Below are positions 9,436 through 58,736 of a DNA stretch of 64,000 bases, one piece after another. Position 1 is the first letter of the stretch. Each line of letters starts with the position of its first letter. The DNA is from Xylanimonas protaetiae (lineage in GTDB: Bacteria; Actinomycetota; Actinomycetes; Actinomycetales; Cellulomonadaceae). Both the position numbers and the translations under genes were made by a program. The stretch lies in NCBI RefSeq assembly GCF_004135385.1, contig NZ_CP035493.1, forward strand, positions 558,001 to 622,000, written 5' to 3'. The notes beneath the pieces were generated by a model. The model did not search any database. It was not told the origin of the DNA and worked only from the letters and a program-made list of their open reading frames with translations.

Positions 9436-9491
9436 GACCCCGCCGTCTCGCCGCAGGCGGGTGGGCCCGCCGCAGCGGGTACCGTGACCGG

Positions 9492-10706
9492 GTGCCCCGC
9501 GCCCTGTCGTCCCGACCGCTCGTGTCGGCGCGGTCCGGGGGGTTCGTCCTGGTGGCGCTGCTGCTCGTCGCGCTCAACCTGCGCGCGCCGCTGACGTCGC
9601 TGCCGCCCGTCGTCGGGCAGGTCTCCGAGGCGCTGTCGCTCACGCCCGCGCAGGCCGGGCTGCTCACCAGCGTGCCCGTGCTGTGCTTCGCGCTGCTCAC
9701 CCCGCCGGCGTCCGTGCTCGTCGCGCGGGCCGGGCCGGAGCGGGCCGTGCTCGCGGCCGTCGTGGGCGTCTTCGCCGGGCAGGTGGTCCGCTCCGCCGGG
9801 ACGTCGCTGCCGCTCGCGCTCGTGGGCACCGCGGTGCTGGGCGCCGGGATCACCATCGGGAACGTCGCCGTGCCCGTCGTCATCGCGCGCGACTTCCAGC
9901 GGCGCTCCGCCGTGGTGACGGGCGCGTACTCCGCGATGATGAACGTCGGCTCGGCCCTGGCGACCACGCTCACCGTGCCGCTGGCCGTCGCCTGGGGCTG
10001 GCAGTGGGCGCTCGCCGGGTGGGCCGCGATGGCGGTCGTCGCGTTCGTCGTATGGGGCCTCGCCGTCCGCGGGAGCACCGACGTCGCCGCCGCCCGGACG
10101 GCCGCGACGTCGCCCCGGCGCGCCGACGGGCCGCCGCACCTCGGCCGCGCGATGACGGTCCTGACCGTGCTGCTGTGCGTCGCGTTCGCGGGCCAGTCGT
10201 CGTCGTACTACGCCGTCACCGCGTGGCTGCCGGAGATCCTGCACGCGCGGCTCGGGGTGGACACCGCCGCCGCGGGCGGGCTGTCCGCCCCGTTCCAGCT
10301 GTGCGCCGTGCTCGGGTCCCTCGGGGCGCCCCTCGCGCTCGCGCGGCGGGTGCCGCTGCGCGTCGTCTCCCTGACCCTGGTCGCGCTGTGGGTCGCGCTG
10401 CCCGCCGGGATGCTCGCCGCCCCGGGCGCCGCGCTGCTGTGGGTCTCGCTCGCCGGCGTCGCGCAGGGCGGCAACTTCACGGTCATCTTCATGCTCATCG
10501 CGCAGCGGGCGCCGTCGGTCGCGGCGGCCCGGCGGGCGTCCGCCGTTGTGCAGACCGTCGGGTACGCGTTCGCCGCCCTGGCCCCCACGGCGCTCGGCGC
10601 GCTGCACGGCGCGAGCGGCGGCTGGACCGTGCCGCTCGCGGGCGTGCTGGGCGTGCTCGCTCTCATGGGCGTCACGATGGCGGTCGCGACGCGGCCCGCT
10701 ACCTGA
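9492..10706 (+). CDS. MFS transporter, CynX/NimT (cyanate permease-like) family
   Basis: 404-residue, roughly 12-helix transporter. The N-terminal block ALNLRAPLTSLPPVVGQV is the hallmark of the CynX/NimT/YycB group of the major facilitator superfamily. A central hydrophilic loop lies at about residues 195-225. The GTG at 9492 is used because TACCGT (9480-9485) ends 6 nt before it (leaderless pattern). The 3' end overlaps the convergent propeller gene by 8 bp, with no room for a terminator between them. Substrate unknown; members export or import nitroimidazoles, cyanate or other small anions. Confidence 0.88.
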   Translation: MPRALSSRPLVSARSGGFVLVALLLVALNLRAPLTSLPPVVGQVSEALSLTPAQAGLLTSVPVLCFALLTPPASVLVARAGPERAVLAAVVGVFAGQVVRSAGTSLPLALVGTAVLGAGITIGNVAVPVVIARDFQRRSAVVTGAYSAMMNVGSALATTLTVPLAVAWGWQWALAGWAAMAVVAFVVWGLAVRGSTDVAAARTAATSPRRADGPPHLGRAMTVLTVLLCVAFAGQSSSYYAVTAWLPEILHARLGVDTAAAGGLSAPFQLCAVLGSLGAPLALARRVPLRVVSLTLVALWVALPAGMLAAPGAALLWVSLAGVAQGGNFTVIFMLIAQRAPSVAAARRASAVVQTVGYAFAALAPTALGALHGASGGWTVPLAGVLGVLALMGVTMAVATRPAT

Positions 10707-12720
10707 GCAGCACCACGGCGTCGGCGTCGAACCGGAAGAGCCGCCCCGCGACCGCGTAGGGCGTCCGGCTCGACGCCGTCGTCGTCCACACGACGGCGCC
10801 GGTGCGCAGGTCCAGCGCCGTCGTGACCTTCTTGCCATCGATCGGGTCGACGGTCTCCTGCTCGCTCGCCGCGGAGACGACGACGACGCGGCGGCCGTCC
10901 GTGAGCGCGTCGAGGACGCCGGAGAAGCCCTCCGGCCGCTGTCCGGTCACGTGCGGCTCGTGCGTCCACAGCACCGCGCCCGTCGCGCGGTCGAGGCCCG
11001 TGACCACCCGCCCGTCCGACACGACGACGACGTCGGCCGTCCGGACCAGCACCCGCGCGCTCGTGACGGTCTTGGCCGTCCAGAGCGGCGTGGCGTCGTC
11101 GGCGTCGTACGCGGCGACGCCGGACCCGCCGCCCGCGACGACGCCCAGGTCCGACGCGATGAGCATCGCCGACGACGGGCCGTCCGTCGCGAAGGGCGGC
11201 AGCACGATGCCGGGGATGTCGCCGACGACGCTGCCGTCGTCGCGCAGGATGTGCATCGACGCGTCCTGGATCCCGTCCGACGGGTCCTCGACGAGGGTGA
11301 GCTCGCCCCAGCCGCCGTCGGGCAGCGCGATGGACGGCCCCCAGGCCGGGGCGTAGCCGGGCGCCGAGACGTCCTGCTGCTCGACGACCTCGCCCGTGCG
11401 CAGGTCGAGCGCGACGTCGAGCCCGCACATGACGGTGCGCAGGCGCTGCGACGTGACGTTGTCGCTCCACGCGTTCTCGGTCTCGACGACGAGGTCGTCC
11501 TGGTCGAGGGCCATCCCGGTCCACGCCTGGCACATCGAGCCTCCGGTGAGCGTGCTCCCGGCGGGCAGGTCCGCGCTGTCGAGCACCGTCTCCCAGCGCA
11601 CGCGGCCGGTCACGGCGTCCTCGAGGCGCACCCGCACGTCGCGCGTGACGAGCGGGTCGAGGAGCGTGGTGGAGCCGACCGACGTGTCGCTCGCGGCGGT
11701 CGTGGCGAGCGGGCTGACGCGTGCCGGCGCGAGCGGGGTACCGAGCCGGTCGATGCGCAGGAGGCTGCCGTCGGCGGTCACGAGGATGCGGTGCGCGGCG
11801 CTCGGCGAGGTGTCGAGGACGACGCTCTCGCCGGGGCCCGGGGCGACGACCGGCTCGTCCTGCGGGAGGTCGTCGAGCTCGCGGCCCGCCAGGATCCTGC
11901 CGGCGCCGTCGACGACGACGACCCTGCGCAGGTCGTCGGACAGGCACACGACGAACGCCGCCCGGGCCACGCGGGTCGCCACGATCGACGTCCACGTCAG
12001 GTCGGGCGCGCCCGCGGTGCACGTGCCGACGCCCTGGGGGACGTCGGCCGTGGCGACCTGCGTGGTCCAGACCAGCTCGCCCGTGGCGACGTCGATGCCG
12101 TGCAGCGTCGGCGCCGCGCCGAGCGGGGCGACGCCGCTGCCCTGCCGCTCCTGGACCACGAGCGTGCCGCCCACGAGCGCGACGGGCGACGGCGTGTCCA
12201 CCGGGACGCGCGCCGCCTCGACGGGGGCGTGGCCGAGGTCGAGGACGGCGCCCGACGTCGTCGCGGCGACCTGCGCCCAGGCGCGCTGCCGGGCCCGGGA
12301 GACGAGCACGTCGGCGGTCACCGTGCCCGCGGCCAGGACGGCGACGACGGTCGCGACCGCGACGACGCGGCGGCGCGGCCAGGACCGCACGCGCGCGCCG
12401 ACCGCCGCCGCGGCCAGGGCGAGGCGCGACGGCGGGAGCTCCTCGCCGCCGGGGAGGTCGCCGCCCGCGAGGTCGCCGCCCGGGAGCTCGTCGTCGGGCA
12501 CGAGGTCGAACCGGATCGTCGGGCCGCCCGCCGACGCCCGCCCAGCCCGGGACGTGCCGACCCGCGGCGACGTCCGCGGCAGCCCGTCCCGCGACGCCCG
12601 GTCCTGCCACGCCTGGTCCAGCGACGCCCCAGCGCGCGACGTCCCGGCCGCGACGGGCGGCGCGTCGTCGGGGTCGAGGTCGAAGGCGAAGGAGTCGTCG
12701 TCGGCGCGTCTGCGGGCCAC
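10699..12720 (-). CDS. Membrane-anchored PQQ-like beta-propeller protein (paralogue 1)
   Basis: 673 residues in three parts. A cytoplasmic N-terminus of about 115 residues has two FDL-acidic motifs (FAFDLDPDD, IRFDLVPDD). A basic stop and single membrane helix follow (PRRRVVAVATVVAVLAAG, about residues 118-140). The large extracytoplasmic part has repeated propeller blades such as DVATGELVWTTQV, DAVTGRVRWETVL and LRTGAVVWTTT. These blades resemble PQQ-dependent dehydrogenase/BamB-type repeats, but no cofactor-site residues can be assigned. The GTG at 12720 follows TATCGT (12728-12733) by 7 nt. The paralogue at 13868-15495 shares all three parts. Function unknown; a surface scaffold or sensor is possible. 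Confidence 0.82.
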   Translation of the reverse strand: MARRRADDDSFAFDLDPDDAPPVAAGTSRAGASLDQAWQDRASRDGLPRTSPRVGTSRAGRASAGGPTIRFDLVPDDELPGGDLAGGDLPGGEELPPSRLALAAAAVGARVRSWPRRRVVAVATVVAVLAAGTVTADVLVSRARQRAWAQVAATTSGAVLDLGHAPVEAARVPVDTPSPVALVGGTLVVQERQGSGVAPLGAAPTLHGIDVATGELVWTTQVATADVPQGVGTCTAGAPDLTWTSIVATRVARAAFVVCLSDDLRRVVVVDGAGRILAGRELDDLPQDEPVVAPGPGESVVLDTSPSAAHRILVTADGSLLRIDRLGTPLAPARVSPLATTAASDTSVGSTTLLDPLVTRDVRVRLEDAVTGRVRWETVLDSADLPAGSTLTGGSMCQAWTGMALDQDDLVVETENAWSDNVTSQRLRTVMCGLDVALDLRTGEVVEQQDVSAPGYAPAWGPSIALPDGGWGELTLVEDPSDGIQDASMHILRDDGSVVGDIPGIVLPPFATDGPSSAMLIASDLGVVAGGGSGVAAYDADDATPLWTAKTVTSARVLVRTADVVVVSDGRVVTGLDRATGAVLWTHEPHVTGQRPEGFSGVLDALTDGRRVVVVSAASEQETVDPIDGKKVTTALDLRTGAVVWTTTASSRTPYAVAGRLFRFDADAVVLLR

Positions 12721-12766
12721 GGGCGGGACGATACCGCCGGCCGCGCGGCCGCGGCACCCGGCGGCG

Positions 12767-13390
12767 TCACGCCGTGATGCGCTCCGCGAGGGCGAGCACC
12801 GCGGCCGTCACCGCGCCGGCGGCCGCGAGCGACGCCCGCCAGTCCCCGGGCACCTCGAGCGTGTGCACCGCGCCGGGTACCTCGACGACGTCCGCGCCCC
12901 CGCGGGCGGCGACGTCGCGGTCCCAGAAAGGGTCGGCCGTGCCGCCCACGAGCACCGCGGGAGCGGCGAGCCGCGCGACGGCGCCGGGCACGTCGTCCGC
13001 CCCGAGCGCGGCCGCGGCGACGGCGGTCAGCGGCGGCGTGAGCCAGGCCCCGGGGACGCCGAGCGCGGCGCACAGCGGCAGCACGAAGGTGCCGAGCGAC
13101 TTGCCGACCACGAGGTGCCGCGCGTCGGGCCGGTCGGCCAGCGCCTCGCGCACCACCCGCTCGTAGGCGGCGCGCCCGGTGGCGGCGTCGGGCCGCGAGC
13201 CCCAGACGACGGTCCGCAGGCTCCACCCGGCCTCGCGCAGGGCGAGGCTCGGGAAGGCGAGCGCCGGCCGCTCGGCGGAGTACCCGGTGCCCGGCAGCAC
13301 GACGGCGACGCGCGACAGGTCGCCGTCGTAGACCTCGACACGGGGCCCGGCGAAGGGCTCGACGGGGCGCTCGACAGGGTGCTCGGCCAT
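12767..13390 (-). CDS. Small alpha/beta hydrolase
   Basis: 207 residues, short for the fold. The nucleophile elbow is VVGKSLGTF (Ser near residue 97). An acid may lie in GGTADPFWD and the His in PGAVHTLEVPGDW. An opening VAVVLPGTGYS strand-loop could supply the oxyanion hole. No signal peptide, so intracellular. The ATG at 13390 lies 6 nt after CAGGCT on the minus strand, overlapping the -10 of the divergent acetyltransferase gene. Substrate not predictable; dienelactone-hydrolase-like or esterase roles are options. Confidence 0.8.
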   Translation of the reverse strand: MAEHPVERPVEPFAGPRVEVYDGDLSRVAVVLPGTGYSAERPALAFPSLALREAGWSLRTVVWGSRPDAATGRAAYERVVREALADRPDARHLVVGKSLGTFVLPLCAALGVPGAWLTPPLTAVAAAALGADDVPGAVARLAAPAVLVGGTADPFWDRDVAARGGADVVEVPGAVHTLEVPGDWRASLAAAGAVTAAVLALAERITA

Positions 13391-13407
13391 CGCGCTAGCC
13401 TGCCGCA
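13391..13407. promoter_or_regulatory. 17-bp divergent intergenic region with overlapping -10 boxes
   Basis: The plus-strand -10 TAGCCT (13396-13401) and the minus-strand -10-like CAGGCT (13402-13397) cover the same six or seven base pairs. Each ends 6 nt before a start codon (GTG 13408, ATG 13390). There is no room for a 5' untranslated region on either side, so both genes are probably leaderless. Confidence 0.55.
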
Positions 13408-13851
13408 GTGACCGCCCGCGCGACCAGCGTCCTTACCGACATCGCCGACTTCGCCGAGATCACCGACGACGACGTCCCCGGCGTCGTCGCGCTGTGGCAG
13501 GAGTGCGGGCTCACACGTCCGTGGAACGACCCGCAGGTGGACATCGCGGACGCCCGCCGCGGTCCGACGTCCACGGTGCTGGTCGCGCACCAGGGCGGCG
13601 CGGTCGTCGCGAGCGTCCTGGCGGGCCTCGACGGCCACCGCGGCTGGCTGTACTACGTCGCCGTCGCCCCGGCGCTCCAGGGCGGCGGGCTCGGCAGGGC
13701 CGCCGTCGCGGCGGGCGAGGACTGGCTGCGCGCCGCGGGCGCCCGCAAGGTGCAGCTCATGGTCCGCACCACGAACGCACAGGTGCGCGGCTTCTACGAG
13801 CGCCTGGGGTACGAGGACCAGGCGACGACGGTGCTCGGCCGCTGGTTCTGA
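13408..13851 (+). CDS. GNAT family N-acetyltransferase (YpeA-like)
   Basis: 147 residues, a complete small GNAT domain. The acetyl-CoA pocket is VAVAPALQGGGLGRAAVAAG (beta4-alpha3 with the Q/R-x-x-G-x-G/A pattern). The C-terminal signature is NAQVRGFYERLGYE. It begins with ITDDDVPGVVALWQECGL, close to the uncharacterised YpeA group. GTG 13408 lies 6 nt after TAGCCT. Acceptor unknown. Diverges from the hydrolase gene with only 17 bp between starts. Confidence 0.87.
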   Translation: MTARATSVLTDIADFAEITDDDVPGVVALWQECGLTRPWNDPQVDIADARRGPTSTVLVAHQGGAVVASVLAGLDGHRGWLYYVAVAPALQGGGLGRAAVAAGEDWLRAAGARKVQLMVRTTNAQVRGFYERLGYEDQATTVLGRWF

Positions 13852-13867
13852 CGGCGCCGCGCCCGGG

Positions 13868-15495
13868 CTACCCGAGAGCGGTCACCGCGTCGTCGGAGAG
13901 CTCGTAGAGCCGCCCGCCGACCGCCTGCGGGACGGGTGCCGTCTTCTCCTCCGACCACGTGACGTCGCCCGTCGCCAGGTCGAGGGCGCGCAGCCGGAGC
14001 GTGCCGGGGGCGCCGTCGGCGGGCAGGTCGCCGACCTGCTCGGCGATCACCGCGCGGCGACCGTCCGTGAAGGCCGTCGCGAGCAGCTCCCCGCGGACGT
14101 CCGCCAGGAACGCGTCCTTGCGCCACAGCTCACGCCCCGTGCGCGCGTCCACCGCCACGACCGACGTCTCGAAGGCGACCACGACGACGCCGTCCGCGCG
14201 CACGAGGGGCTGCGGGTGCGCGCCGGGCTGGTTCCACAGCTCGGACGTGTCGGCGGGGTCGACGCCGGTGAGGCCGTGCGTGTCCGTCAGGAGGACGTCC
14301 GCCGGTGAGCCGTCGGTGGCGAGGGGGGCCCGCACGGCCCCGTCGACGACGCCGACGACCGTCCCGTCGTCCCGCTGGACCCGGGTCGTCCAGCCCGCGA
14401 CGGCCGCGGCCGGGACGCCCGTCGCCCAGCCGCCGCCGTCGAGGGGGCGGACGTCCGGGTCCCACGCCTGGTCGGGGTCGAAGTGGTCGACGGACCGCAT
14501 GACCGCGCCCGTGGCGAGGTCGAGCGTGACGCTGACGCCGCAGGCCTCCAGCGTCGCGTGCTGCGCGCCGACGTCGGACGAGAGCCCGTTCTCGTCGCTC
14601 GTCACCTCCGGGGTGCCCGAGCCGGACCATGTGACGCACGGCGTCATCCGGTCGACCCGGGTGCCCGCGGGGGCCGTCGCCCCGGGCACGGTCGTGGACC
14701 AGCGCTCCGCGCCCGTCACGGCGTCCTCGAGCCGGACGAGCATGTCGCGCGTCGTGAAGTCCTCGGTCAGCGCACCGTCGGCGGCCAGCGGCGCCACGGC
14801 CGGCGGGCCGACGCGGCTGACGCGCACCACGGCCCCCGGAGCCGCGAGGTCGTACTCGCCGGGGGCGCTCCCCGCGAGCTGGCGGTCCGCGACGATCGCG
14901 CCGCCCGCCCCGACGACGACGACGACGCCGTCCGCGCCCGGACCGGTCAGGCAGACCACGGTGTCGGCCGTCCCGACACCCGGCGCCCAGCCGCCGACCG
15001 GACCGGGCGCGGCACCGCAATCGTGCGCGTCCCCGATGCGCGTGGACCACCGCACGGCGCCGTCGTCGGGGTCGAGGGCGTCGAGCACGACCTGGCCGAA
15101 CGCCTGGTTCGGTACCGTCTCGGCGACCACGAGCAGGCCGTCCATGATCGCGAGCGCCCGCGGGTGGTCGAGCGCGGTCCGCCACCGTTCCGCCGGGGCG
15201 GCGGCGAGTCCGACGACGCCGCCGGGCGCCGTGACGAGCCGGTCGCGCAGCTCGTGGCCGCGCACGACGTCGACGGCGGCGGCGATCCCGGAGCCCGCGA
15301 GCACGAGGCCGACGACGGCGCCCACGGCGACGACCTTGCGGCGTCGCGGCCAGGCGCGGACGGCCCGGACGGCGCGGGTGGTCCGAGCCGGCTCCGGCGT
15401 CTCGGGGGCGAGGCCCGGCGCGTCGCCTCGCTCGTCCTCGGGCGGGGGTCGAGGTCGAACCTGACGGTCCGCGAAGCGTCGCTGTGATGCACCAC
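13868..15495 (-). CDS. Membrane-anchored PQQ-like beta-propeller protein (paralogue 2), reading frame broken once
   Basis: Paralogue of the protein at 10699-12720. The N-terminus, MVHHSDASRTVRFDLDP from GTG 15495, is in one frame. The rest (PPEDERGDAPG, then the membrane anchor PRRRKVVAVGAVVGLVLAG, then blades such as DDGAVRWSTRI, DAVTGAERWSTTV and DARTGRELWRKD) is in another. Adding one C to the five-base run at 15444-15448 joins them as FDLDPPPEDERGDAPG, matching the FDLDPDD motif of paralogue 1. I therefore treat it as one gene of about 542 residues with a missing base. The start is supported by TACCGT (15502-15507) 6 nt upstream. If the deletion is real, translation would have to start downstream of the N-terminal motif. 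Function unknown. Confidence 0.75.
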
Positions 15496-49477: not shown

Positions 49478-50476
49478 ATGTCGACCAACGTCGAGATCGA
49501 CGAGCCCCTGGCGGTGACCGCCAGGGGCTCGTCCCCCCTCACGCGCAAGACGCGGCGCAAGGTCCGGTGGTTCGAGGTGGCCGGGTTCACGGCCCCCGCG
49601 CTGCTGGTCTACGTGGCCTTCGTCTTCGTCCCGGTAGCCTTCGCGGTCGTCATGGCGTTCTTCGACGGCAACCGGGTGCAGCCCTTCAGCAACTTCGTCG
49701 GGTTCGACAACTTCGCCGAGATCTTCACCGGCGGACGCACCTTCGGCATGCCCTTCTTCTGGGACGCCGTCCGCAACAACTTCCTGATCGCGATCCTGTC
49801 GCTGGTGCTGCAGGGCCCGCTCGCCATCGGTGTCGCGCTGCTGCTCAACCGTCCGATGAAGGCCCGCGGCCTCGTGCGCACGCTCATCTTCGTGCCGTAC
49901 GTGCTGTCCGAGGTCATCACGGGTGTCATGTTCACGATGATGCTGCTGCCCAACGGCGCCCTGGCCGTCTGGCTCGAGCGTCTGGGCCTCGGCAGCCTCG
50001 CGGACACGCTGTGGCTCGCCGACATCGGCAACGGCGGCCTGGGTTCGATCACCTTCTGGGTCGCCATGTTCGTCCTGACCTGGAAGTACATCGGCCTGGC
50101 GATCATCCTGTTCCTCGCCGGCCTCTCGGGCATCCCTGAGGAGCTCACCGAGGCGGCGTCGATCGACGGGGCCAGCTGGTGGCAGATCCAGCGCAAGATC
50201 ACGCTGCCGCTGCTCGGCCCGACCATGCGCATCTGGGCGTTCCTGTCGATCATCGGCTCGTTCCAGCTGTTCGACATGATCTGGATCCTGACCCGTCAGA
50301 ACCCGACCATCGTCGGCATGGACACCATGGCCACCTACATGGTGCAGATGGGCATGAACCGCAACCGCGTCGGCTACGGCTCGGCGATCGCCGTCGTGCT
50401 GTTCGTCATCACGCTGATCGTCGCCCTGGTGTACCAGCGGTTCATCCTCAAGCGCGACGTCGGAAAGGAGGCCTGA
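49478..50476 (+). CDS. Sugar ABC transporter permease (MalF/UgpA-like)
   Basis: 332 residues, about six helices (first FTAPALLVYVAFVFVPVAFAVV). EAA loop EAASIDGASWWQIQRKITLPLLGPT, characteristic of carbohydrate permeases. The first 36 codons from ATG 49478 include a 35-bp perfect inverted repeat; an in-frame GTG at 49514 in its centre is an alternative start. No strong Shine-Dalgarno before 49478, so expression may depend on read-through from the binding-protein gene 7 bp upstream. Confidence 0.92.
   Translation: MSTNVEIDEPLAVTARGSSPLTRKTRRKVRWFEVAGFTAPALLVYVAFVFVPVAFAVVMAFFDGNRVQPFSNFVGFDNFAEIFTGGRTFGMPFFWDAVRNNFLIAILSLVLQGPLAIGVALLLNRPMKARGLVRTLIFVPYVLSEVITGVMFTMMLLPNGALAVWLERLGLGSLADTLWLADIGNGGLGSITFWVAMFVLTWKYIGLAIILFLAGLSGIPEELTEAASIDGASWWQIQRKITLPLLGPTMRIWAFLSIIGSFQLFDMIWILTRQNPTIVGMDTMATYMVQMGMNRNRVGYGSAIAVVLFVITLIVALVYQRFILKRDVGKEA
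49499..49533 (+). repeat. 35-bp perfect inverted repeat at the binding-protein/permease junction
   Basis: Arms 49499-49515 and 49517-49533 are exact complements around a single central base. It starts 29 bp after the binding-protein stop. In RNA it would form a 15-16 bp hairpin over the beginning of the permease gene. Confidence 0.85.
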
Positions 50477-50477
50477 G

Positions 50478-51383
50478 ATGGCTGCGACGACCGTCGGCAC
50501 GGCCCCCGCGCCTGCCGCCAAGCAGGAGCTCCGGCACAAGAAGGTCTGGTCCTGGAGCCAGCCCTGGGTCTACCTGGTCGCCCTGGTGACGTGCGCCGTG
50601 GCCATCGGCCCGGTGCTGTGGGTGGTGCTGGGCGGCGCCCGGACCAACCCGCAGTTCCTGACCGACCCGGCCGGCCTGCCGAACCCGTGGAACTGGAGCA
50701 ACTACGCGGACATCCTCTGGGGTCAGTTCGCGAGCCGCTTCTGGGGCCAGGTCATGACGTCGGCGATCATCGCCGTCGGCACCACGGCCCTCGTGGTGGT
50801 GCTGGGGACGTCCGTGGCCTACGCCATCGGCCGCTTCCCGATGCGCGGCACCGGCGCGCTGTTCGCGATCTTCGCCGCGGGCCTGATGTTCCCGGCGACG
50901 ATCGGCATCCTGCCCACCTGGGTCATCCTGGGCGAGCTCAACCTGGTGGGTAACCCGCTGGGCGTGATCATCCCGCAGGTGGCGTTCGCGCTCCCGACGA
51001 CGGTCGTGATCCTGACACCGTTCGTCAAGGCCATCCCTCGCGAGATCGAGGAGGCCGCCGAGATCGACGGCGCCGGCCGCGTGAAGTTCTTCTTCCGCAT
51101 GCTGCTGCCGCTCGCGCGGCCCGGCATGGTGACGGTGGGCGTGCTCGCGTTCGTCGGCTCGTGGAACGCGTTCATGCTGCCGCTGTTCGTCCTCGGCGCG
51201 GGCGGCGCGGGCTCCAACCGCCACACCCTGCCGCTGGGCGTGCAGATGTTCCAGACGCAGTTCTCCTCGTCGATGACCTCGATCATGGCGTTCACGACGC
51301 TCGCCGCCATCCCGGCGCTGATCTTCTTCCTCGCCATGCAGAAGTACATCGTCAACGGCCTCTCGGGAGCCGTGAAGGGCTGA
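50478..51383 (+). CDS. Sugar ABC transporter permease (MalG/UgpE-like)
   Basis: 301 residues, about six helices. EAA loop EEAAEIDGAGRVKFFFRMLLPLARPG. VMTSAIIAVGTTALVVVLGTSVAYAIGRF and FPATIGILPTWVIL are typical MalG segments. Its ATG has a strong AAAGGAGG at 50463-50470 and lies 1 bp after the preceding stop. Pairs with the MalF-like protein. Confidence 0.93.
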   Translation: MAATTVGTAPAPAAKQELRHKKVWSWSQPWVYLVALVTCAVAIGPVLWVVLGGARTNPQFLTDPAGLPNPWNWSNYADILWGQFASRFWGQVMTSAIIAVGTTALVVVLGTSVAYAIGRFPMRGTGALFAIFAAGLMFPATIGILPTWVILGELNLVGNPLGVIIPQVAFALPTTVVILTPFVKAIPREIEEAAEIDGAGRVKFFFRMLLPLARPGMVTVGVLAFVGSWNAFMLPLFVLGAGGAGSNRHTLPLGVQMFQTQFSSSMTSIMAFTTLAAIPALIFFLAMQKYIVNGLSGAVKG

Positions 51384-51404
51384 CCCGCCCACCCGTTCAC
51401 GGCC

Positions 51405-51441
51405 AAGCCCTCGTCGGTCCTCCCCGGAACGGCGAGGGCTT
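51405..51441 (+). terminator. Hairpin after the sugar ABC operon
   Basis: AAGCCCTCG ... CGAGGGCTT, 9-bp perfect stem with a 19-nt loop, 22 bp after the last permease stop and 23 bp from the end of the convergent gene at 51464. Confidence 0.6.
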
Positions 51442-51463
51442 CGTCGTGCAGCGGCCCCGGCGG

Positions 51464-52249
51464 TCAGCCCGCCGACGTGTCGACGTCCACCGTGACCGCG
51501 TCCGCGCCGAACTCCGCCTGGAGCTGGGCGACGAGCGCGTCCAGGGTCTGCTGCTCCGGGCTCGTCGCGTCGGCCGCCGCGAGCAGCGCCGCCGACGTCA
51601 CCAGCGCGGGCGCCGAGCCGCCGAGCGGGTACGACGCCTGGCGGGCGCCGTGGTGGTGCCCCGCCTCGCGCAGCCGGGGGCCGGTCGGCACCGGGGTGCC
51701 CAGCAGGTCGGCGAGCTGCTGGAGCAGCGCCTGCACCTGGACCGAGACCTTGCGGTCCCGGCGGCTGAGCACCACGACCTGGACCGCCGTCGCGTCCGTG
51801 GTGCACGCGCTGCACGCCGTCCCGACGGCGAGCGCCCGGTTCGTCGCGACGACGTCGGTGCCCGGCCGCTGGATCACCACCTGCACGGACGCCGACGTGG
51901 CGGTGCCCGACGTGCCGGTGGCCCACGCGGCGGCGACGTTGTCGGCGGTGATGCCGCCGCGCGCCACGTAGGCCACCTGGACGGTCGCAGCGCGGCCGCT
52001 GCAGCCGTCGCACACCGTCGACGCCGTCGCCGTCGCCGTCGCGTGCCCGCCTCGGGCCACAGCGACGGTGCGGGCCTGGGCGTCCTCGACGGCGGTGCGG
52101 CCGACGTCGGCGTGCGCGGCGGTCACGAGGTCGACGTCGGACGCGCTCGTGGACCAGTGCGAGCGGGACGACACGCCGCCCGCGACCAGCAGGACGCCGG
52201 CGACGATGCCGGCGGCCGCACGGGCGGCGGGGATGCGGGTGAGGTTCAT
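51464..52249 (-). CDS. Secreted or membrane-anchored protein with two CxxC pairs, unknown function
   Basis: 261 residues from ATG 52249, which has GGAGGA 7 bases upstream. An N-terminal hydrophobic segment AAAGIVAGVLLVAGGV is a signal or anchor. Two similar parts follow, each with a CxxC pair (VCDGCSG, ACSACTT) followed by valine-alternating strands (AATVQVAYVAR, TAVQVVVLSRR). The CxxC pairs could form disulfides or bind metal. Helical and His-containing tail (GHHHGARQ). No family recognised. Last gene of the peptide/M50-ParA cluster, 94 bp after the fusion gene. Confidence 0.65.
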   Translation of the reverse strand: MNLTRIPAARAAAGIVAGVLLVAGGVSSRSHWSTSASDVDLVTAAHADVGRTAVEDAQARTVAVARGGHATATATASTVCDGCSGRAATVQVAYVARGGITADNVAAAWATGTSGTATSASVQVVIQRPGTDVVATNRALAVGTACSACTTDATAVQVVVLSRRDRKVSVQVQALLQQLADLLGTPVPTGPRLREAGHHHGARQASYPLGGSAPALVTSAALLAAADATSPEQQTLDALVAQLQAEFGADAVTVDVDTSAG

Positions 52250-52343
52250 GCGGCAGTCCTCCAGGTCGTGGGACGGGTGGTGCGGGTCGTCGCCCGGCGT
52301 GCGGGCGCGGGACGGGTCGTGCGCCCGCGGCGGCGGCCGCGGG

Positions 52344-54992
52344 TCACCGCACGGCCCTCGGGCTCGTGTGGAAGGAGTCCGCGAGCGCCGCCGCAACCTC
52401 CATGAACGCCTCGCGCGTGCGCGGCTGCAGCGCGGCGAGCGTGGTGTGCCCGCCCGCCTGGAGGGTCTTGTCCCAGGGGACGACGACGACGTGGGCGCAC
52501 CGCTGCGCGAAGTGGTCGCGGATGACGTGGACGGCCGGGTCGGCCGCCTCGGTCACGCCGTTGAGGACGACGACGGCGGTGCGGACCAGCTCGGGGTACC
52601 CGTGCTCCTCGAGCCAGTCGAGGGTCTGCGCGCCCGCGCGGGCGCCGTCGAGGGCGGGCCGCAGCACGAGGACGAGCTCGTCGGCCTCGGCGAGCAGGCC
52701 CTGGTTGGCGCTGTCGAGGATGCCGGTGCCCGTGTCGAGCAGCACGAGGTTGTAGAAGTGGTCGAGGACGCCCACCACCTTGCGGTACGCGGCCCGGTCG
52801 AGGGCCTGGGTGATGCGGGCGTCGTCGTCGGACGCGAGGACCTCGAGCCGCGACTCGGGGCACTGCGAGGTGTAGCGCCGCATCGTCGCGAACGAGTCGA
52901 CGGCGCCGGCGTCGTGGATGAGGTCGGTGATGGTGCGGTCGCAGTCGCCGGCGATGCGGTTGGCGAGGTTGCCGGCGTCGGGGTTGGCGTCGACGGCGAC
53001 GACGCGGTCGCCGCGCAGGGTGGCGAACGTGGCGCCCAGCCCGACGGTGACCGACGTCTTGCCGACGCCGCCCTTGCGGCTCATGACGACGACGCGGCGC
53101 GTGCCGTCGATGGGGGCGCGGACGCGGTCGTGCAGGGTGTCGCGGCGGACCTCGGACCTCCCGGGGCCGAGGGCGACGGCGCCGTGGGTGCCGGTGCGGA
53201 CGGCCTTGCGCCAGCCCGTCGTGGCGAGGCGCCGCGGGGCGCCGAGGACGGTCTCGTCGGTGAGCTCGGCGGCGGTGAGGCCCGACAGGCGCGTCGGGTC
53301 GAAGACGTCGGCGGCGGGCGGCTCGGCGGCCTCCCCGGCGGGCGGCTCGGCGGCCTCCCCGGCGGGCGGCTCGGCAGCGGGCTTGCCGGCGGCGGGCGCG
53401 GGGTCCGGCCCGCGCACGAGCTCCGGCTCGGGTTCCGGCACGTACCGCGGGATCTCCAGGCCCGCGACGGCGTTGAGCCCTGGCGCGGCGGCACTGAGCC
53501 CCGGCGCGGCGGGTGCCCACGGCGCCGGCGCCTGGAGCACCGACGCGGACCGGCTCAGCGCCGCGAGCAGGTCGAAGCCCTGCGCGGACGCGGGCAGGTC
53601 GGGCACGTCCCCGGGGCCCGCCGCGGGCGCGGCGTGGGCCCCGGGGGCGGTCCCGGGGGTGAGGGTCGAGTCCATGATCTGCCTCCTCGGTCGACGGGCG
53701 GTGAGCAGCCGGCGGCCGAGGGCCGCCCCCGACTGCAGGGTGCGGACCGCGAGCGCCGCCAGGCCGGCCACGGGCACGGCCAGCAGGGCGAGCGAGACGA
53801 TCCCGACGAGCACGGCCGCGACGTCGTGCGCGGACCATGCGGCGGACAGCAGCGACCACTGGTGGGTGACGGCGTCGACGGCCGTCGACGTCAGGGCGGG
53901 CAGGTTGAGGACCAGCCAGACGACGCCCGCCGCGAGCAGCGGCACGACGCACAGCACCCAGGCGGTGACGGCGCGCCGGGCGCCGGGGCGCATGTCGGCG
54001 ACGCGCGGGTCGACGGGCCGGCCGGGCACCACGCTGCGCAGCACGGGGCCGATGCGGGCGAACAGGTCGGGCACCCCGGCCAGGTCGGTGAGCACGAAGT
54101 AGCCGTCGAGGCGCACCGCGGGCAGCAGCTGCTCGAACGCCTCGACGTGCATGAGCACGAGCACGACGAGCAGCACGGGGCTGTCGGTGACGAGCTGCGC
54201 GGTCCCGACGGCCAGCAGGCACCACACCGTGAAGTAGAGGCCCCCGAGGTCCGTACGCAGCCGCCCGCCCCGGCCGAGCCGGTAGGAGTCGGTGACGTTG
54301 GTGAAGAACGCGGGCGCGACGAGGTAGACACCGACGCCGATCCGCCCCGGCGTCGCGCCGCCGTACGAGCAGGCGGCGGCGTGGCCGAGCTCGTGGACCA
54401 GCGCGCACAGGGTCGTCAGCGCGAAGATCCCGACCATGACGACCGGGGTCTGCAGCACGACGGCCAGGGCGTCGATGACCTGGGCGTCCGCGAGGATCAT
54501 GACGTCGACGGCCACCCAGGCGGCCAGCACGAGCGCGACGACGACGGGCCGGAAGGTGGGGGCGAGCACGCGCGCGAGGCGGCGCACGACGCCCGCGGGC
54601 ACGAGCGTGCCGCGCATCGTCAGGCTCAGCAGCGGGTTGGCGGTCGGCGCCTTGCGGGCCCGGCCGCGGGCACCGGCACCGGCGTCGTGCGCGGCGTCGT
54701 CGGCGAGGCCGACGGGTGCGAGCTTGACCGAGACGAGCAGGTCGAGCCCCTCGACGGTGAGGGTGCGCCCGTAGGACACGCTGACGGCGTCGGCGACCTG
54801 CGCGGGCGTGCGCCGCGGGTCGAGCCGGGCCAGGACCGTGTTGACCAGCGCGGACACCTGGACGACCTGGCCGTCCGGGCGCCGCACGAGGAACGCGGGC
54901 GCCTTGAGGCCCGACCCGGCGACCTCCCCGAGCAGGGTGGTGCCGACGGGACGGGCCCAGCGATGTTCGTCTACCCCGATGGTGGTGCTCAT
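52344..54992 (-). CDS. PqqD-like/M50 membrane metalloprotease fused in frame to a ParA/MinD-type ATPase
   Basis: One open frame of 882 residues. Residues about 15-96 resemble a PqqD-like winged helix (KAPAFLVRRPDGQVVQVSAL), a peptide-binding element of RiPP-type systems. Membrane helices follow, with zinc motif HELGH at 200-204 and a third ligand in RLDGYF near 296 (M50, site-2-protease-like). After the last helix (about 410-425) comes a Pro/Ala-rich linker with GEAAEPPA repeats, then a ParA/MinD ATPase: deviant Walker A KGGVGKT at 640-646, VAVDANPDAGNLANRI, and LVLLDTGTGILDSANQG. ATG 54992 has GGGAG 5 bases upstream. A second start inside (53675) has a better ribosome site, so ParA may also be made alone. 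Confidence 0.8.
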   Translation of the reverse strand: MSTTIGVDEHRWARPVGTTLLGEVAGSGLKAPAFLVRRPDGQVVQVSALVNTVLARLDPRRTPAQVADAVSVSYGRTLTVEGLDLLVSVKLAPVGLADDAAHDAGAGARGRARKAPTANPLLSLTMRGTLVPAGVVRRLARVLAPTFRPVVVALVLAAWVAVDVMILADAQVIDALAVVLQTPVVMVGIFALTTLCALVHELGHAAACSYGGATPGRIGVGVYLVAPAFFTNVTDSYRLGRGGRLRTDLGGLYFTVWCLLAVGTAQLVTDSPVLLVVLVLMHVEAFEQLLPAVRLDGYFVLTDLAGVPDLFARIGPVLRSVVPGRPVDPRVADMRPGARRAVTAWVLCVVPLLAAGVVWLVLNLPALTSTAVDAVTHQWSLLSAAWSAHDVAAVLVGIVSLALLAVPVAGLAALAVRTLQSGAALGRRLLTARRPRRQIMDSTLTPGTAPGAHAAPAAGPGDVPDLPASAQGFDLLAALSRSASVLQAPAPWAPAAPGLSAAAPGLNAVAGLEIPRYVPEPEPELVRGPDPAPAAGKPAAEPPAGEAAEPPAGEAAEPPAADVFDPTRLSGLTAAELTDETVLGAPRRLATTGWRKAVRTGTHGAVALGPGRSEVRRDTLHDRVRAPIDGTRRVVVMSRKGGVGKTSVTVGLGATFATLRGDRVVAVDANPDAGNLANRIAGDCDRTITDLIHDAGAVDSFATMRRYTSQCPESRLEVLASDDDARITQALDRAAYRKVVGVLDHFYNLVLLDTGTGILDSANQGLLAEADELVLVLRPALDGARAGAQTLDWLEEHGYPELVRTAVVVLNGVTEAADPAVHVIRDHFAQRCAHVVVVPWDKTLQAGGHTTLAALQPRTREAFMEVAAALADSFHTSPRAVR
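53675..53687 (-). promoter_or_regulatory. Internal Shine-Dalgarno and ATG for the ParA-type part
   Basis: Perfect AGGAGG (53682-53687, minus strand), 6-nt gap, ATG at 53673-53675, in frame with the M50 part at codon 440. Would give a 443-residue ParA protein starting MDSTLTPGTA. There is no stop codon between the two parts in any nearby position of the frame. Confidence 0.65.
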
Positions 54993-55061
54993 GGTTGCTC
55001 CCGGCCGGCCCGCCGCCGCCGGAGATACGGCCCGGCGGCGGCGGGACGGACGTGCGGGCGG

Positions 55062-55274
55062 TTACCCGTGGAGGGACAGGCCCTGAAGGATCGTGCTGGC
55101 CGCCGTCGACCCGATCGTCGCGGCGTTCAGGGCAAGGCCCACGTTGACCGCGACCACCGGGCTGACGTTGATCACGACCGGAGAAAAGCGTCGCGCGAAC
55201 AGCAGCGTCTCGCGCGGCGGGAGGAGCTCGACGGACTGGTCCGCCAGCTCGCGTGCGGTGATGAGGTCGTGCAC
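55062..55274 (-). CDS. Short peptide B with ELLPxRETL motif (putative precursor)
   Basis: 70 residues. Polar N-terminal part MHDLITARELADQSV, motif ELLPPRETLLF at 16-26, then a valine/asparagine-rich half (INVSPVVAVNVG) and the block LALNAATIGSTAAS at 47-60. Shares both blocks with peptide A at the same spacing. No signal peptide, Cys or metal site. GTG 55274 with GAGGAAG upstream. It lies directly before the protease/ATPase gene (69 bp), consistent with being its substrate. No family recognised; a leader/core organisation is inferred. Confidence 0.78.
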   Translation of the reverse strand: MHDLITARELADQSVELLPPRETLLFARRFSPVVINVSPVVAVNVGLALNAATIGSTAASTILQGLSLHG

Positions 55275-55425
55275 AGGGACTCACTTCCTCGGATCGATGG
55301 GCTTGCAGGAGGCCCGGTGCCGCCGGCCGCGGGCACGGCACGCGTGCCCTCGGGGTAAGGAGGCTCCCGGCGTGCCGTACGGACGCAAGGCACGACGACA
55401 CCGGGCGTTCCGGTGCATCGTCCGG

Positions 55426-55620
55426 TCAGCCCTGGCTGACGACGATGGTCTGGACAGCGCTGCTGGCCGCCGTGGAGAACAGCGACGCAGCGTTGAGCGC
55501 CAGAGACGAGTTGGACGCGTAGATACCCGCCCAGTTGGCCCGGTTGAAGAAGAGCGTCTCCCGCTCGGGGAGCAGCTCCGTCGACTCTCCCTCGAGCTCG
55601 TGGAGCGTGATCTCGTTCAT
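55426..55620 (-). CDS. Short peptide A with ELLPxRETL motif (putative precursor)
   Basis: 64 residues. MNEITLHELEGEST, motif ELLPERETLFF at 15-25, then NRANWAGIYASNSS and the block LALNAASLFSTAAS at 40-53, ending in AVQTIVVSQG. Paralogue of peptide B, differing mainly between the two shared blocks. ATG 55620 follows GGGGGTGA by about 8 bases. It is the first gene after the SARP-type operator and the -10 TACGTT (55656-55661). Probable exported or membrane-acting small product, function unknown. Confidence 0.8.
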   Translation of the reverse strand: MNEITLHELEGESTELLPERETLFFNRANWAGIYASNSSLALNAASLFSTAASSAVQTIVVSQG

Positions 55621-55929
55621 GTGTTGTCACCCCCTCTCAGGTGAAGGACGGGGTGAACGTAGGCCGCGCGACGTGACCCCGGCGTCGTCTCGGCGTGACG
55701 ATGGCGTCATGGCCCCGTGACCGGAGCGTGATCCGCACGTGACGGGGCGACCGCGACCGGGCCTGCGGCTCTACCGTGAAGCGAGCTCGGGGTTCGGGGT
55801 AGGGGTGCGTCACGATCGGTCGCTGATGTCCGAGGTGTCACGGATCGCCTCCTCCGCCCTCTTGTCTGGTGAGACCTCCGCGACGGGACCCGTCGCGAGG
55901 GAGCGATGGACGACTCGGGGTAACTGACC
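55621..55929. promoter_or_regulatory. Divergent control region between peptide A and the SARP gene
   Basis: 309 bp without a gene. The left half holds the heptad array and peptide promoter. The right half (55744-55929) should contain the SARP gene promoter, but I could not fix a convincing -35/-10 there. Confidence 0.6.
55656..55743 (-). promoter_or_regulatory. SARP-type operator: seven heptads at 11-bp pitch plus -10 box
   Basis: On the minus strand heptads begin at 55743, 55732, 55721, 55710, 55699, 55688 and 55677: GTCACGT, ATCACGC, GTCACGG, ATGACGC, GTCACGC, ACGACGC, GTCACGT. Each is separated by 4 bp, so all fall on the same helix face. Nine bp after the last heptad is TACGTT (55656-55661), the -10 of the peptide operon. 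SARP activators are known to bind such direct repeats at 11-bp pitch about 8 bp from the -10. Confidence 0.8.
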
Positions 55930-56658
55930 ATGACCATGACCGTCGACGAGGCCGCGCCGGCCGTCGTCGGATATCGGCTCAACCTGCTCGGCGACGCCGC
56001 CGTCCTGCACGACGGCGCCCCCGTCCCGCTGCTGCGACGCGAGCGGCTGCTCGTGTCGCTGCTCGCGCTCCAGGGCTCCCGACCACGGGGCCACATCGCC
56101 GGGACGCTCTGGCCCGAGACGCCCGAGGACCGCGCCCGGGCGTCGCTGCGGCAGTCCCTGCGCACCCTGCGGCAGGTGCTGCCCGACGGGTTCGTCGTGG
56201 GCGGGCCGGGTTCGCTCGGGCTCGCTCCGAGCCTCGACGTCGACGTCTGGGAGGTCCGGCACCAGTGCGAGACGGTGCTCTCCGGGACCGTGCGCCTGAC
56301 CGTGCGCCGGGCGCTGGAGGCGCTCCACGCGATCACCGGGCCGGAGCTGCTGCTCGGGGAGTTCGACGACTGGGTCGACGTCGAGCGGCGGCGGCTCCAG
56401 CGACAGCGCCTGCACGCGCTCGAACGGCTGACGCGCGAGCTCAAGCGGCTCGGCGAGACCGCCTGGGCCATCAGCGCGGCCGAGGCCGCGGCCGACCTCG
56501 ACCCGCTGCGCGAGGAGCCGGCGGCGTTGCTCATCGCACTCCACCTCGCGGAGGGGTCCGTGGTAGAGGCGCGCCGGACGTTCGACTCGTTCCGGCGCCG
56601 GCTGCGCACCGAGCTGCGCGTCGACCCGTCGCCACGGGTGCTGGCGCTGCTGCGCTGA
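55930..56658 (+). CDS. SARP family transcriptional activator (AfsR/DnrI-type, small)
   Basis: 242 residues. N-terminal winged-helix OmpR-like DNA-binding part (RLNLLGDAAVLHDGAPVPLLRRERLLVSLLAL, SLRQSLRTLRQVLP), then the bacterial transcriptional activation (BTAD) helical domain (ERRRLQRQRLHALERLTREL, DPLREEPAALLIALHLAEG). No NB-ARC or TPR extension, so a pathway-specific small SARP. Divergent from the short-peptide operon whose control region carries the matching heptads. ATG 55930 or ATG 55936 may be the start; GGGG lies about 9 bases before the first. Confidence 0.9.
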   Translation: MTMTVDEAAPAVVGYRLNLLGDAAVLHDGAPVPLLRRERLLVSLLALQGSRPRGHIAGTLWPETPEDRARASLRQSLRTLRQVLPDGFVVGGPGSLGLAPSLDVDVWEVRHQCETVLSGTVRLTVRRALEALHAITGPELLLGEFDDWVDVERRRLQRQRLHALERLTRELKRLGETAWAISAAEAAADLDPLREEPAALLIALHLAEGSVVEARRTFDSFRRRLRTELRVDPSPRVLALLR

Positions 56659-56788
56659 CTCCCCCGGCGGTCCGCACGGCCCGGTGGTCCCCACGTACCC
56701 GATGGGGCTGTCCCGACGGTGCGCCACGAGCCGCGACCTGACGAGGCGACGGCTGGACGTGCCGTGGCCCGGCGGGGACAGTCGAGGC

Positions 56789-57391
56789 ATGCCGAACGTC
56801 GTCGTCCTCCCTCTGACGGAGCTGCCCGCGGACCGTCGCGCCGAGGTGGCGCGCGTCTTCGCCGCCGCCTACGCCACGGACCTTGCCACGATCTCGCGCG
56901 ACACCGAGCGGTGGGCGGCCGCGCTCGCCCCGGCGTTCGTGGCCGACGTCTGCTTCGTCGCGCTCGACGGCGACGCGGTGGTGGGCGTGGCGGCCTGCTC
57001 CCACGGGACGACGCGCGCCCTGCGGCTCGACCCGCGGGCGCTGCGCCGCCACCTCGGCGTCGTGCGCGGGACGTTCGCCTCCCTCGCCATGGGCCGGACG
57101 TTCCACCACCGGCTCCCCTACCCGGCGTCGACGGGCTACGTGGAGTGCGTCGCGACAGACCCCGCGGCCCGCGGCCGGGGCGTGGCGACGACGCTGATGG
57201 ACCACCTCCACGCGCTCCCATACGACGACTTCGTGCTCGAGGTGACGGACACCAACGAGCGGGCCCGCGCCCTCTACACGCGGCTGGGCTACACGGAGCA
57301 CCACCGCCGCCGCTCGCGCCTCCCCTGGCTGACGGGCTACCGGGAGGCCCTGTACCTGACGCGGGCGGGGAACGGGGCCCGGGCGGCGTAG
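56789..57391 (+). CDS. GNAT family N-acetyltransferase
   Basis: 200 residues. Acetyl-CoA site VECVATDPAARGRGVATTLMDHL and C-terminal NERARALYTRLGYTEH. The middle (RALRLDPRALRRHLGVVRG) is a longer insertion seen in some GNATs acting on small molecules. ATG 56789 follows a GACAGT hexamer by 6 nt. Substrate unknown. An exceptionally long inverted repeat follows 22 bp after its stop. Confidence 0.87.
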   Translation: MPNVVVLPLTELPADRRAEVARVFAAAYATDLATISRDTERWAAALAPAFVADVCFVALDGDAVVGVAACSHGTTRALRLDPRALRRHLGVVRGTFASLAMGRTFHHRLPYPASTGYVECVATDPAARGRGVATTLMDHLHALPYDDFVLEVTDTNERARALYTRLGYTEHHRRRSRLPWLTGYREALYLTRAGNGARAA

Positions 57392-57413
57392 CGGCGGCCC
57401 GGGCGGCGACGGC

Positions 57414-57488
57414 ACCTCCCTTTCGATGTCGTACTTCCTTGCGTTCCGGCCGCCGAAGCGCAAGGAAGTACGACATCGAAAGGGAGGT
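57414..57488. repeat. 30-bp perfect inverted repeat, 15-nt loop
   Basis: Arms 57414-57443 and 57459-57488 are exact complements; loop TTCCGGCCGCCGAAG. The arms (CCTTTCGATGTCGTACTTCC and flanks) are clearly lower in GC than the surroundings. It lies between two tandem plus-strand genes, 22 bp after one and about 100 bp before the next. Possible strong terminator; sequence unrelated to the 31508/42366 family. Confidence 0.85.
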
Positions 57489-57589
57489 TGTGGAGGACGC
57501 GGGCAGGAAGGAGACGGCCCGGCGGCGCCGGACCCGCCCGGCAGAGCGCCGGAACGGCCCGCGTCGGCGGGTGTGGCTACGCTGCCCAG

Positions 57590-58255
57590 ATGGCGCGGAC
57601 CAAGCCCTTCCCCGAACGCCCGGCGATCGACGAGGTCGTCCTGACGGACCTCGTCGCCGGGGACCCGGCGGACCTCTGCCCCGGCACCGACCTCGAGGGC
57701 GTCGCGCTCGCCGACGTCGTGGCGGACCGGATCAACCTCGCCCGGGCGGGTGTCCACGAGTCACACCTCGCCGGGCTGCGGGCGGGCGAGCTCGACCTGA
57801 CGGGCGCGACGCTCGTCGACACGGTCGTCGACGGCGTCGACGTGCCCGTCGTGCGGGCCGTGCGCAGCACGTGGCGCGGCGTGAGCCTGCGCACCGCGCG
57901 GCTCGGGTCGGCCGAGCTGTACGAGTCGCGGTGGCGGGGCGTCGACGTCGTCGGCTGCAAGCTCGGCTATGTCAACCTGCGCGGCGCGACGCTCGACGAC
58001 GTCCGGTTCACCGACTGCATCGTCGACGAGCTCGACCTGGTCCAGGCGACGGCCACCCGCGTCGCGTTCGCGGGCACGCGGGTGCGGCGCCTCGACGTCC
58101 AGGGCGCCACGCTGCGGCACGTCGACCTGCGCGGCGCCGGGCTGGAGGAGCTGAGCGGCCTGGACGCGCTCGCCGGGACGGCGATCAGCCCGGAGCAGCT
58201 CGCGGACCTGGCGCCGGCGCTGGCCGCGCACCTGGGGATCACCGTGCTCGGGTGA
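57590..58255 (+). CDS. Pentapeptide repeat protein
   Basis: 221 residues with tandem A(D/N)LxX-type repeats: GVALADVVADRINLARAG, GELDLTGATLVDTVVDG, YVNLRGATLDDVRFTD, LDVQGATLRHVDLRGAG. These form a right-handed quadrilateral beta helix. Some family members mimic DNA and protect gyrase from quinolones (Qnr/MfpA); the repeats here are too irregular to assign that role. ATG 57590 lies 6 nt after TACGCT (57578-57583). C-terminal helix with PEQLADLAPALAAHLG. Confidence 0.88.
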   Translation: MARTKPFPERPAIDEVVLTDLVAGDPADLCPGTDLEGVALADVVADRINLARAGVHESHLAGLRAGELDLTGATLVDTVVDGVDVPVVRAVRSTWRGVSLRTARLGSAELYESRWRGVDVVGCKLGYVNLRGATLDDVRFTDCIVDELDLVQATATRVAFAGTRVRRLDVQGATLRHVDLRGAGLEELSGLDALAGTAISPEQLADLAPALAAHLGITVLG

Positions 58256-58367
58256 CGCTGATAGCCAACGGTTGTCAGCCCATCGGAGATGCCGCTTGGA
58301 CACGTCCTCCCACCGCTGCGGACCATGGAAGGGCAGGGGAGCGGGTCCGACGAGGGAGGCCACTGCC

Positions 58368-58736
58368 ATGGACCGTGAGACGACCGGACCGCAGGAGGCC
58401 GGACCGCAGGACGACGTCGTGACGGCGCGCGAGACCGTGGTCTCGTACGTCGTACGCCCCGAGGCGCTCGGCATCCGGGCCCCGGCCGACGTCCCGGAGG
58501 GCTGCTACGTCGCCCGCTTCGACGAGGGCAGCGTGGGCAACCCGTCCTTCGCGCTCCTGCCGTACACGGACGGCGCCCCTGCGCTCATGGTGACGGTCGC
58601 GGGCGACCACGGCGTCGACGAGCGCTCGCCGCGCTACGTGCGCGTGGCGACACGGGTGGGCGAGGTCGACTACGAGCTGCACCTGCCCGTCAACGCCACC
58701 GGGTGGGCTTCTCCCCCGCCGGACGGCCCCGCCTGA
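58368..58736 (+). CDS. Hypothetical protein
   Basis: 122 residues. Acidic N-terminus, then a beta-rich core (ETVVSYVVRPEALGIRAP, GCYVARFDEGSVGNPSFALLPYTD, RYVRVATRVGEVDYELHLPV). No signal, membrane segment or recognised family. ATG 58368 has GAGGGAGG about 9 bases upstream. Divided from the pentapeptide gene by 112 bp containing an imperfect dyad (GCTGATAGCC...GGTTGTCAGC near 58257-58279), which might be its operator or the preceding gene's terminator. Confidence 0.65.
   Translation: MDRETTGPQEAGPQDDVVTARETVVSYVVRPEALGIRAPADVPEGCYVARFDEGSVGNPSFALLPYTDGAPALMVTVAGDHGVDERSPRYVRVATRVGEVDYELHLPVNATGWASPPPDGPA

Follow-up and report, generated by a model that had tools for sequence, protein, structure and literature searches.

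A candidate leader-guided protease system with paired repeat peptides in Xylanimonas protaetiae and other Actinomycetota

The locus and the linkage of its leader peptides to a protease

The locus described here is a compact block of five genes at positions 51464-56658 of a 64,000-nucleotide stretch of the Xylanimonas protaetiae genome (the whole of which we call the window). In the order of transcription along the minus strand, it encodes two short peptides with the motif ELLPxRETL, a protein in which a PqqD-like RiPP recognition element (RRE; RiPP, ribosomally synthesized and post-translationally modified peptide) and an M50 site-2 protease are fused to a ParA-type ATPase, and a CxxC protein predicted to be secreted; a regulator of the Streptomyces antibiotic regulatory protein (SARP) type is encoded divergently on the plus strand (Table 1). 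The original prediction, made from the letters of the window, had put these five genes forward as a new peptide system. All five lie where it had placed them, and the same genes are found in the same arrangement in two congeneric genomes (loci L008 and L009). The fusion is a single open frame in the window and in both congeners (72% and 78% identity), and a six-frame scan of the 64 kb finds ELLPxRETL twice, in the two peptides only.

Table 1. Features of the locus, in positions of the window.
Feature	Position	Strand	Description
Precursor peptide 1	55426-55620	-	64 amino acids (aa); leader ...ELLPERETL, core ...NWAGIYASNSSLALNAASLFSTAASSAVQTIVVSQG; orthologues L008:9006-9212, L009:11044-11250
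Precursor peptide 2	55062-55274	-	70 aa, GTG start; leader ...ELLPPRETL, core ...NVSPVVAVNVGLALNAATIGSTAASTILQGLSLHG; orthologues L008:9346-9564, L009:10689-10907
RRE/M50/ParA fusion	52344-54992	-	882 residues; PqqD-like RRE (~10-100), M50 site-2 protease (~125-430), MinD/ParA ATPase (~630-880)
Secreted CxxC beta-repeat protein	51464-52249	-	261 aa; hydrophobic N-terminal segment and four predicted beta-hairpin repeats (residues 38-161)
Small SARP-type activator	55930-56658	+	242 aa; Pfam BTAD 1.1e-14; orthologues in L008 and L009; divergent from the peptides
Putative SARP operator	55672-55742		CGTGA direct repeats
Candidate -10 element of the peptide operon	55656-55661	-	TACGTT; read by eye from the alignment of three congeners

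Our study showed that peptides of this kind and the protease occur together far beyond the genus, in many bacteria of soils. A single-sequence scan of the contigs of the named genomes with the window protease found no relative, but a scan with a diverse protease alignment did, and the loci discussed below are the best 80 of 315 relatives confirmed from the latter, which makes them lean towards the window. Their hosts include at least 17 named genera of Actinomycetota, together with bins of Acidimicrobiia and Thermoleophilaceae and two bins labelled Chloroflexi. Short peptides matching our peptide profile are present in 64 of the 80 loci. The number rises to 72 when the longer type-B substrates described below are counted, and an LPxR-type substrate lies beside the protease in 77 once five of the remaining eight loci are read by eye (four with Gly-rich peptides, one with a His/Gly/Asp-rich one). 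As for the last three, L108 and L131 are small contig pieces, and no substrate is visible by eye in L134.

The profile built from the 64 peptides matches in 44 of 394 genomes of the class. A protease match was found in all 44 of these versus three of 36 others, which were chosen by handle number from the genomes not listed as peptide-positive and are assumed to lie within the 394; two of these three matches are weak (E values of 2.5e-29 and 1.6e-21), and among the positives the match in G485 is partial and lies at the end of a contig (E 2.1e-16). Because the genomes are related, the value of 2e-19 for this association overstates their independence. At the level of single matches, 72 of 78 peptides lie within 3 kb of the protease (median gap 478.5 bp), and the other six are three on a protease-less contig of G414 and three in the genus g169 that are distant from the protease or on a separate contig. 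The recurrent linkage of ELLPxRETL peptides to RRE-M50 proteins, which the original prediction had named as the support to look for, thus held up, and in this sample the peptides were not found to be widespread without the protease. Leader-type matches distant from the protease or on a separate contig were seen in G500, G529 and G719, and may be peptides acting in trans or chance matches. Within the order (396 genomes), the peptide profile matches 12 genomes of eight genera, three of which (G138, G321 and G383) are weak partial matches in long frames and probably not peptides; the fusion profile matches 120, many through the ParA part alone.

The protease itself has the hallmarks of an M50 site-2 enzyme, with membrane helices, an intact HELGH (residues 200-204) and a later LDG; the H, E, G, H, D and G of these motifs are invariant in all 56 aligned proteases. 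The alignments used for structure prediction (56 proteases and 47 CxxC sequences) leave out L008, L009 and the other whole-genome loci. An AlphaFold2 model of fusion residues 1-447 reached a predicted local distance difference test (pLDDT) score of 90.6, with strands at 19-23, 34-37 and 43-46 followed by helices at 48-56, 63-74 and 80-94. This model and its fold matches support the PqqD-like RRE that had been proposed for the N-terminus, fused to a site-2 protease. No solved structure reached E<=0.001 in Foldseek for the protease model or for that of the CxxC protein, and a PDB sequence search with the protease gave nothing significant (PqqD at E 0.52).

The ParA part carries the Walker A motif KGGVGKTS and matches MinD/ParA structures in a PDB sequence search; by these matches it is MinD-like. 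It is fused to the protease in 19 of the 80 loci, 18 of which also have a SARP gene. The recurrent linkage named by the original prediction therefore extends to the PqqD-M50 part and not to ParA, and the energy or positioning that it had ascribed to ParA does not generalize: an optional domain cannot be the general energy source, and the six stand-alone relatives that we read lie in other gene contexts. A link to type VII secretion, suggested by what we take to be a resemblance to MinD-like secretion ATPases, was rejected. Seven stretches with ParA matches were fetched, and the ParA gene and its neighbours were called in six (none in L232); by eye, these neighbours are housekeeping or unrelated genes or, in L238, membrane and secreted proteins. 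Of the stand-alone ParA relatives in the loci read, the closest (L235:7701-8834, E 5.5e-150) has no adjoining protease. On a 32 kb plasmid-like contig of a congener (L010, G001:C2), the linker and the ParA part of the fusion have a weak match in two pieces, with one internal stop (8926-10238).

Within the genus, the cassette is accessory, being carried by three of 11 genomes, its own genome counted (four of the eight negatives are less than 80% complete). Crude codon counts gave 15 silent and 16 amino-acid-changing differences for peptide 1 (versus L008), 14 and 17 for peptide 2, and twice as many changing as silent ones for the CxxC gene (104 versus 52), all of which speaks against a simple picture of strong conservation. 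The SARP gene has fewer changing than silent differences (40 versus 77).

Cargo designs and the CxxC protein

Loci have one to five paralogous peptides of 60-70 aa, two being the commonest number (36 of 64 loci). In the alignment of 64 peptides, LP is invariant and R nearly so. Downstream of the LPxR leader we saw at least four cargo designs: an Asn-Ala-Gln repeat, found in the window and many relatives and often present as a pair of two types; the type-B substrates, roughly 200-335 residues long, in which LPDKEV is followed by repeats such as AAPIDAAVAANANV; Gly-rich tails, in Pseudonocardiales and some others; and, in L074 and L079, a tail rich in Asn, Asp and Gly. The constant part of the system is the protease, and the cargo borne by the leader varies by lineage. 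In L074 (8396-8716) and L079 (8429-8737), the leader ESVEMLPTRETL is joined to a tail of the last design (GNDVLSDNDGNFSGN). Protease-adjacent Gly-rich peptides with an LPxR leader were seen in L106, L109, L111, L113, L117, L119, L120, L127, L139, L151 and L152, many of which have several peptides each, often with a recurring NLxGDQTN-like stretch. In L146 (5348-5722), a peptide adjoining the protease combines an LPGREAL leader with a His/Gly/Asp-rich tail. Searches of PHROGs gave no match to the window peptides and a single weak one to the CxxC protein (E 0.0046); PDB sequence searches gave nothing significant for either.

The CxxC protein was correctly recognized in the original prediction, with the refinement that two CxxC pairs are present in it, a GxxG standing at a site that is CxxC in at least 90% of the 47 aligned sequences. 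Relatives occur in 38 of the 394 class genomes, and a CxxC domain is present in 54 of the 80 protease loci, fused to the protease in eight of them. In type-B systems it is fused onto the C-terminal half of the protease in all 11 cases checked (L069-L073, L075-L078, L080 and L081). All eight fused protease-CxxC proteins examined have an extra hydrophobic segment between the protease and the CxxC domain; the segment is absent from the window protein and from six ParA fusions, and present in one of six unfused proteases (L105). This distribution fits a CxxC domain on the outside of the membrane and a ParA domain on the inside. In six type-B loci (L069, L071, L072, L073, L077 and L078), the substrate and the protease-CxxC fusion have a YchF-like GTPase gene nearby, and the gene order is conserved, pointing to a locus that is resident and not mobile.

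The model of the window CxxC protein consists of eight strands forming four hairpins (residues 38-161, mostly at pLDDT 94-98). Its best Foldseek rows, none of them significant, include FapC (E 0.18) and the CsgA fibril (E 1.6). Residues 31-64 of peptide 1 align without gaps to residues 131-164 of the CxxC protein (E 1.5e-4, score 30.5), compared to a maximum of 14.3 in 100 column-permuted controls and up to 22.9 and 22.0 in reversed ones. The score is 34.5 with the window-type peptides alone and 23.4 with the remaining peptides. The core profile further matches nine of 54 CxxC domains at E<=0.1 versus none of 1080 shuffles, and five of 337 other proteins, all five being type-B substrates. We read these alignments as a repeat design shared by the peptide cores and the CxxC repeats, for which common descent is likely. 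The original prediction had been silent on this design and on the CxxC protein as a frequent partner of the peptides, as well as on the variable cargo, the optional ParA and the SARP-type repeats described below.

Regulatory elements and neighbouring genes

Upstream of peptide 1, CGTGA repeats begin at 55672, 55694, 55716, 55727 and 55738, i.e. with a spacing of 22, 22, 11 and 11 bp. Three CGTGA copies at 11-bp spacing are found at a single place in the window and in none of 100 shuffles. The sites bound by SARPs consist of direct repeats with a spacing of 11 or 22 bp (PMC10936776), and the SARP link of the original prediction is strengthened accordingly: the regulator shares with the SARPs described in PMC10936776, PMC5930380 and PMC10972967 both a BTAD domain and 11/22-bp repeats before its likely target operon. 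The window repeat, CGTGA/TCACG, is unlike the heptamers of the published examples examined. Pfam finds BTAD alone in this protein (above cut-off), with no sensor part. In all three congeners, a TANNNT element can be read by eye 10 nt behind the last repeat position (TACGTT in the window, TACCGT in L008, and TACGTT in L009, where the last repeat is altered).

A SARP gene is present in 26 of the 80 protease loci. GTGA triplets at 11 bp were found in 11 of these 26, always no more than about 400 bp ahead of the first peptide, versus two of the 54 others, namely L093, which is too near a contig end to show a SARP gene, and L146, where the triplet is far from the protease. The contrast is weaker when the search is opened to every 5-mer that recurs at 11 bp (seven of 26 SARP loci versus three of 27 others at p<=0.01). 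In 14 loci of the Streptomyces and Kitasatospora type, a helix-turn-helix gene precedes the peptides instead; in L074 and L079, too, relatives of this gene lie ahead of the peptide (48-54% identity to best matches).

We surveyed 516 neighbouring proteins of the 80 loci, in which 21 clusters occurred in at least four loci and were judged by eye on the first residues of the proteins. No modifying enzyme common to several lineages, no recurring immunity gene and no recurring transporter was seen among them. The earlier statement that no modification enzyme of a known RiPP class is present thus stands near the locus, and the lack of a shared modifying enzyme or transporter fits unmodified cores that need no common transporter; modification enzymes may nevertheless sit elsewhere in the genome. 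Genes found in some lineages include a monooxygenase-like gene, seen in five Streptomyces loci, and genes for various kinds of ABC ATPase, seen in twelve loci. In the Nocardioides loci L089, L093, L097, L100 and L112, the CxxC gene is directly followed, on the opposite strand, by genes for an ABC permease and an ATPase. A GNAT acetyltransferase gene (56789-57391) adjoins the SARP gene in the window and in L009 (68% identity), and is not SARP-adjacent in L008.

Candidate mechanism and competing explanations

In the mechanism that we propose, the divergent SARP would bind the 11/22-bp repeats upstream of peptide 1 and switch the operon on. The PqqD-like RRE, at the N-terminal, cytosolic end of the membrane protease, would then recognize the LPxRE leaders, as linkage and fold suggest, and the M50 domain would cut near the leader end, the core being released through or at the membrane by the protease itself. 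The cores, each predicted to be one strand-turn-strand repeat with a fixed Asn/Ala/Gln pattern, may assemble outside the cell with the exported CxxC protein, which is the weakest step of the chain. As a stack of four hairpins, some of them presumably closed by CxxC pairs, this protein could nucleate, cap or anchor an amyloid-like assembly of beta-repeats outside the cell. In the lineages that have it, the ParA part would be an accessory domain that may help to place or cycle the protease. The maturation module alone, with the RRE reading LPxRE and the M50 enzyme cutting, is quite probable. For the whole chain, in which a SARP-switched system frees unmodified cores by RRE-guided proteolysis for assembly outside with the CxxC protein, we see the case as evenly balanced.

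The nearest named protease is, according to the NCBIfam models, the daptide protease: all 56 proteases match NF041824 at E<=0.01, the window protein at 91-92 bits for a cut-off of 300. As described in PMC10036551, daptides have an N-terminal RRE fused to an intramembrane site-2 protease (DapP/MpaP), and each of their loci encodes several short precursors whose N-terminal motif is conserved, as seen here, and by analogy the maturation module may work like theirs. They differ by their ELExMEAP motif and C-terminal Thr, where the window peptides have an LPxRE leader and no C-terminal Thr, and by genes for DapB, an oxidative decarboxylase, an aminotransferase and a methyltransferase, none of which was found among the ten window proteins scanned with Pfam (49478-58736) or by eye among the neighbour clusters; the CxxC repeat protein is an addition of the present system. 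The locus could still be a divergent daptide cluster whose modification genes were lost or moved, since the ELLPxRE leader resembles ELExMEAP in form and every protease matches the daptide model. This is very improbable given the low bit score, the missing Thr and the missing DapB, C, D or M type genes, and the same genus holds a separate daptide-like cluster. The latter, recognized by eye in another congener (L011, G006:C20, ~8671-14519), has two ELExMEAP-like short precursors together with an M50 protease, ABC transporter genes and genes of aminotransferase-like and methyltransferase-like type. Epipeptide systems have a radical SAM epimerase, unlike the present system, where none was seen beside the protease, an RRE is present and the peptides are different. 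The NCBIfam YydH/LiaK M50 model matches all 56 proteases at E<=0.01 (the window protein below cut-off), and the epipeptide protease EpeP is thought both to cut and to export its short peptide (PMC10885120).

That the nearest named proteases mature daptides, which are haemolytic (PMC10036551), and epipeptides, of which EpeX is antimicrobial (PMC10885120), that SARPs usually control specialised metabolites (PMC10972967) and that peptides come most often in pairs would all suit a new antimicrobial or membrane-active RiPP class, with the RRE-protease maturing a two-part bacteriocin and the modification enzymes encoded elsewhere in the genome. We find this rather unlikely, as no modifying enzyme or immunity gene recurs across lineages and a single core residue pattern, common to the CxxC protein, is kept across orders. 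A signalling role is also conceivable, in which the site-2 protease would free a peptide pheromone or an envelope-reporting leader fragment. M50 proteases act in regulated intramembrane proteolysis signalling elsewhere, and about a third of the loci have a SARP gene nearby; the one to five paralogues of 60-70 aa and the repeated units of the type-B substrates would however be unusual for pheromones, Pfam finds no sensor part in the SARP, and we regard this role as improbable.

Taken to its full breadth, the assembly mechanism would be a widespread actinobacterial and Chloroflexota route in which RiPP-style leader recognition operates without modification and single-repeat subunits polymerise on a CxxC-stapled nucleator, i.e. 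a leader-guided extracellular fibre system with swappable cargo, unrelated to curli, Fap and chaplins. We offer this generalization tentatively. The proposed likeness to curli and Fap lies in one hairpin per repeat with an Asn/Gln pattern and in a major subunit with a partner; unlike curli, none of the 64 peptides matches the curlin model of Pfam at E<=0.1, the fold match is not significant, and no search was aimed at curli exporters. If the assembly mechanism is true, RRE-guided proteolysis would also serve as an export route for unmodified structural peptides, beyond natural-product chemistry, and the LPxRE leader with its variable cargo would provide a mining handle and possibly a release tag. 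We found no prior description of this system in the literature searched, most subscription journals being outside its reach. The protease set spans the many actinobacterial genera given above and the two Chloroflexi bins, yet no Pfam or NCBIfam family names the scanned peptides or CxxC proteins at cut-off, and two annotated Streptomyces plasmid copies of the protease are labelled 'hypothetical protein'.
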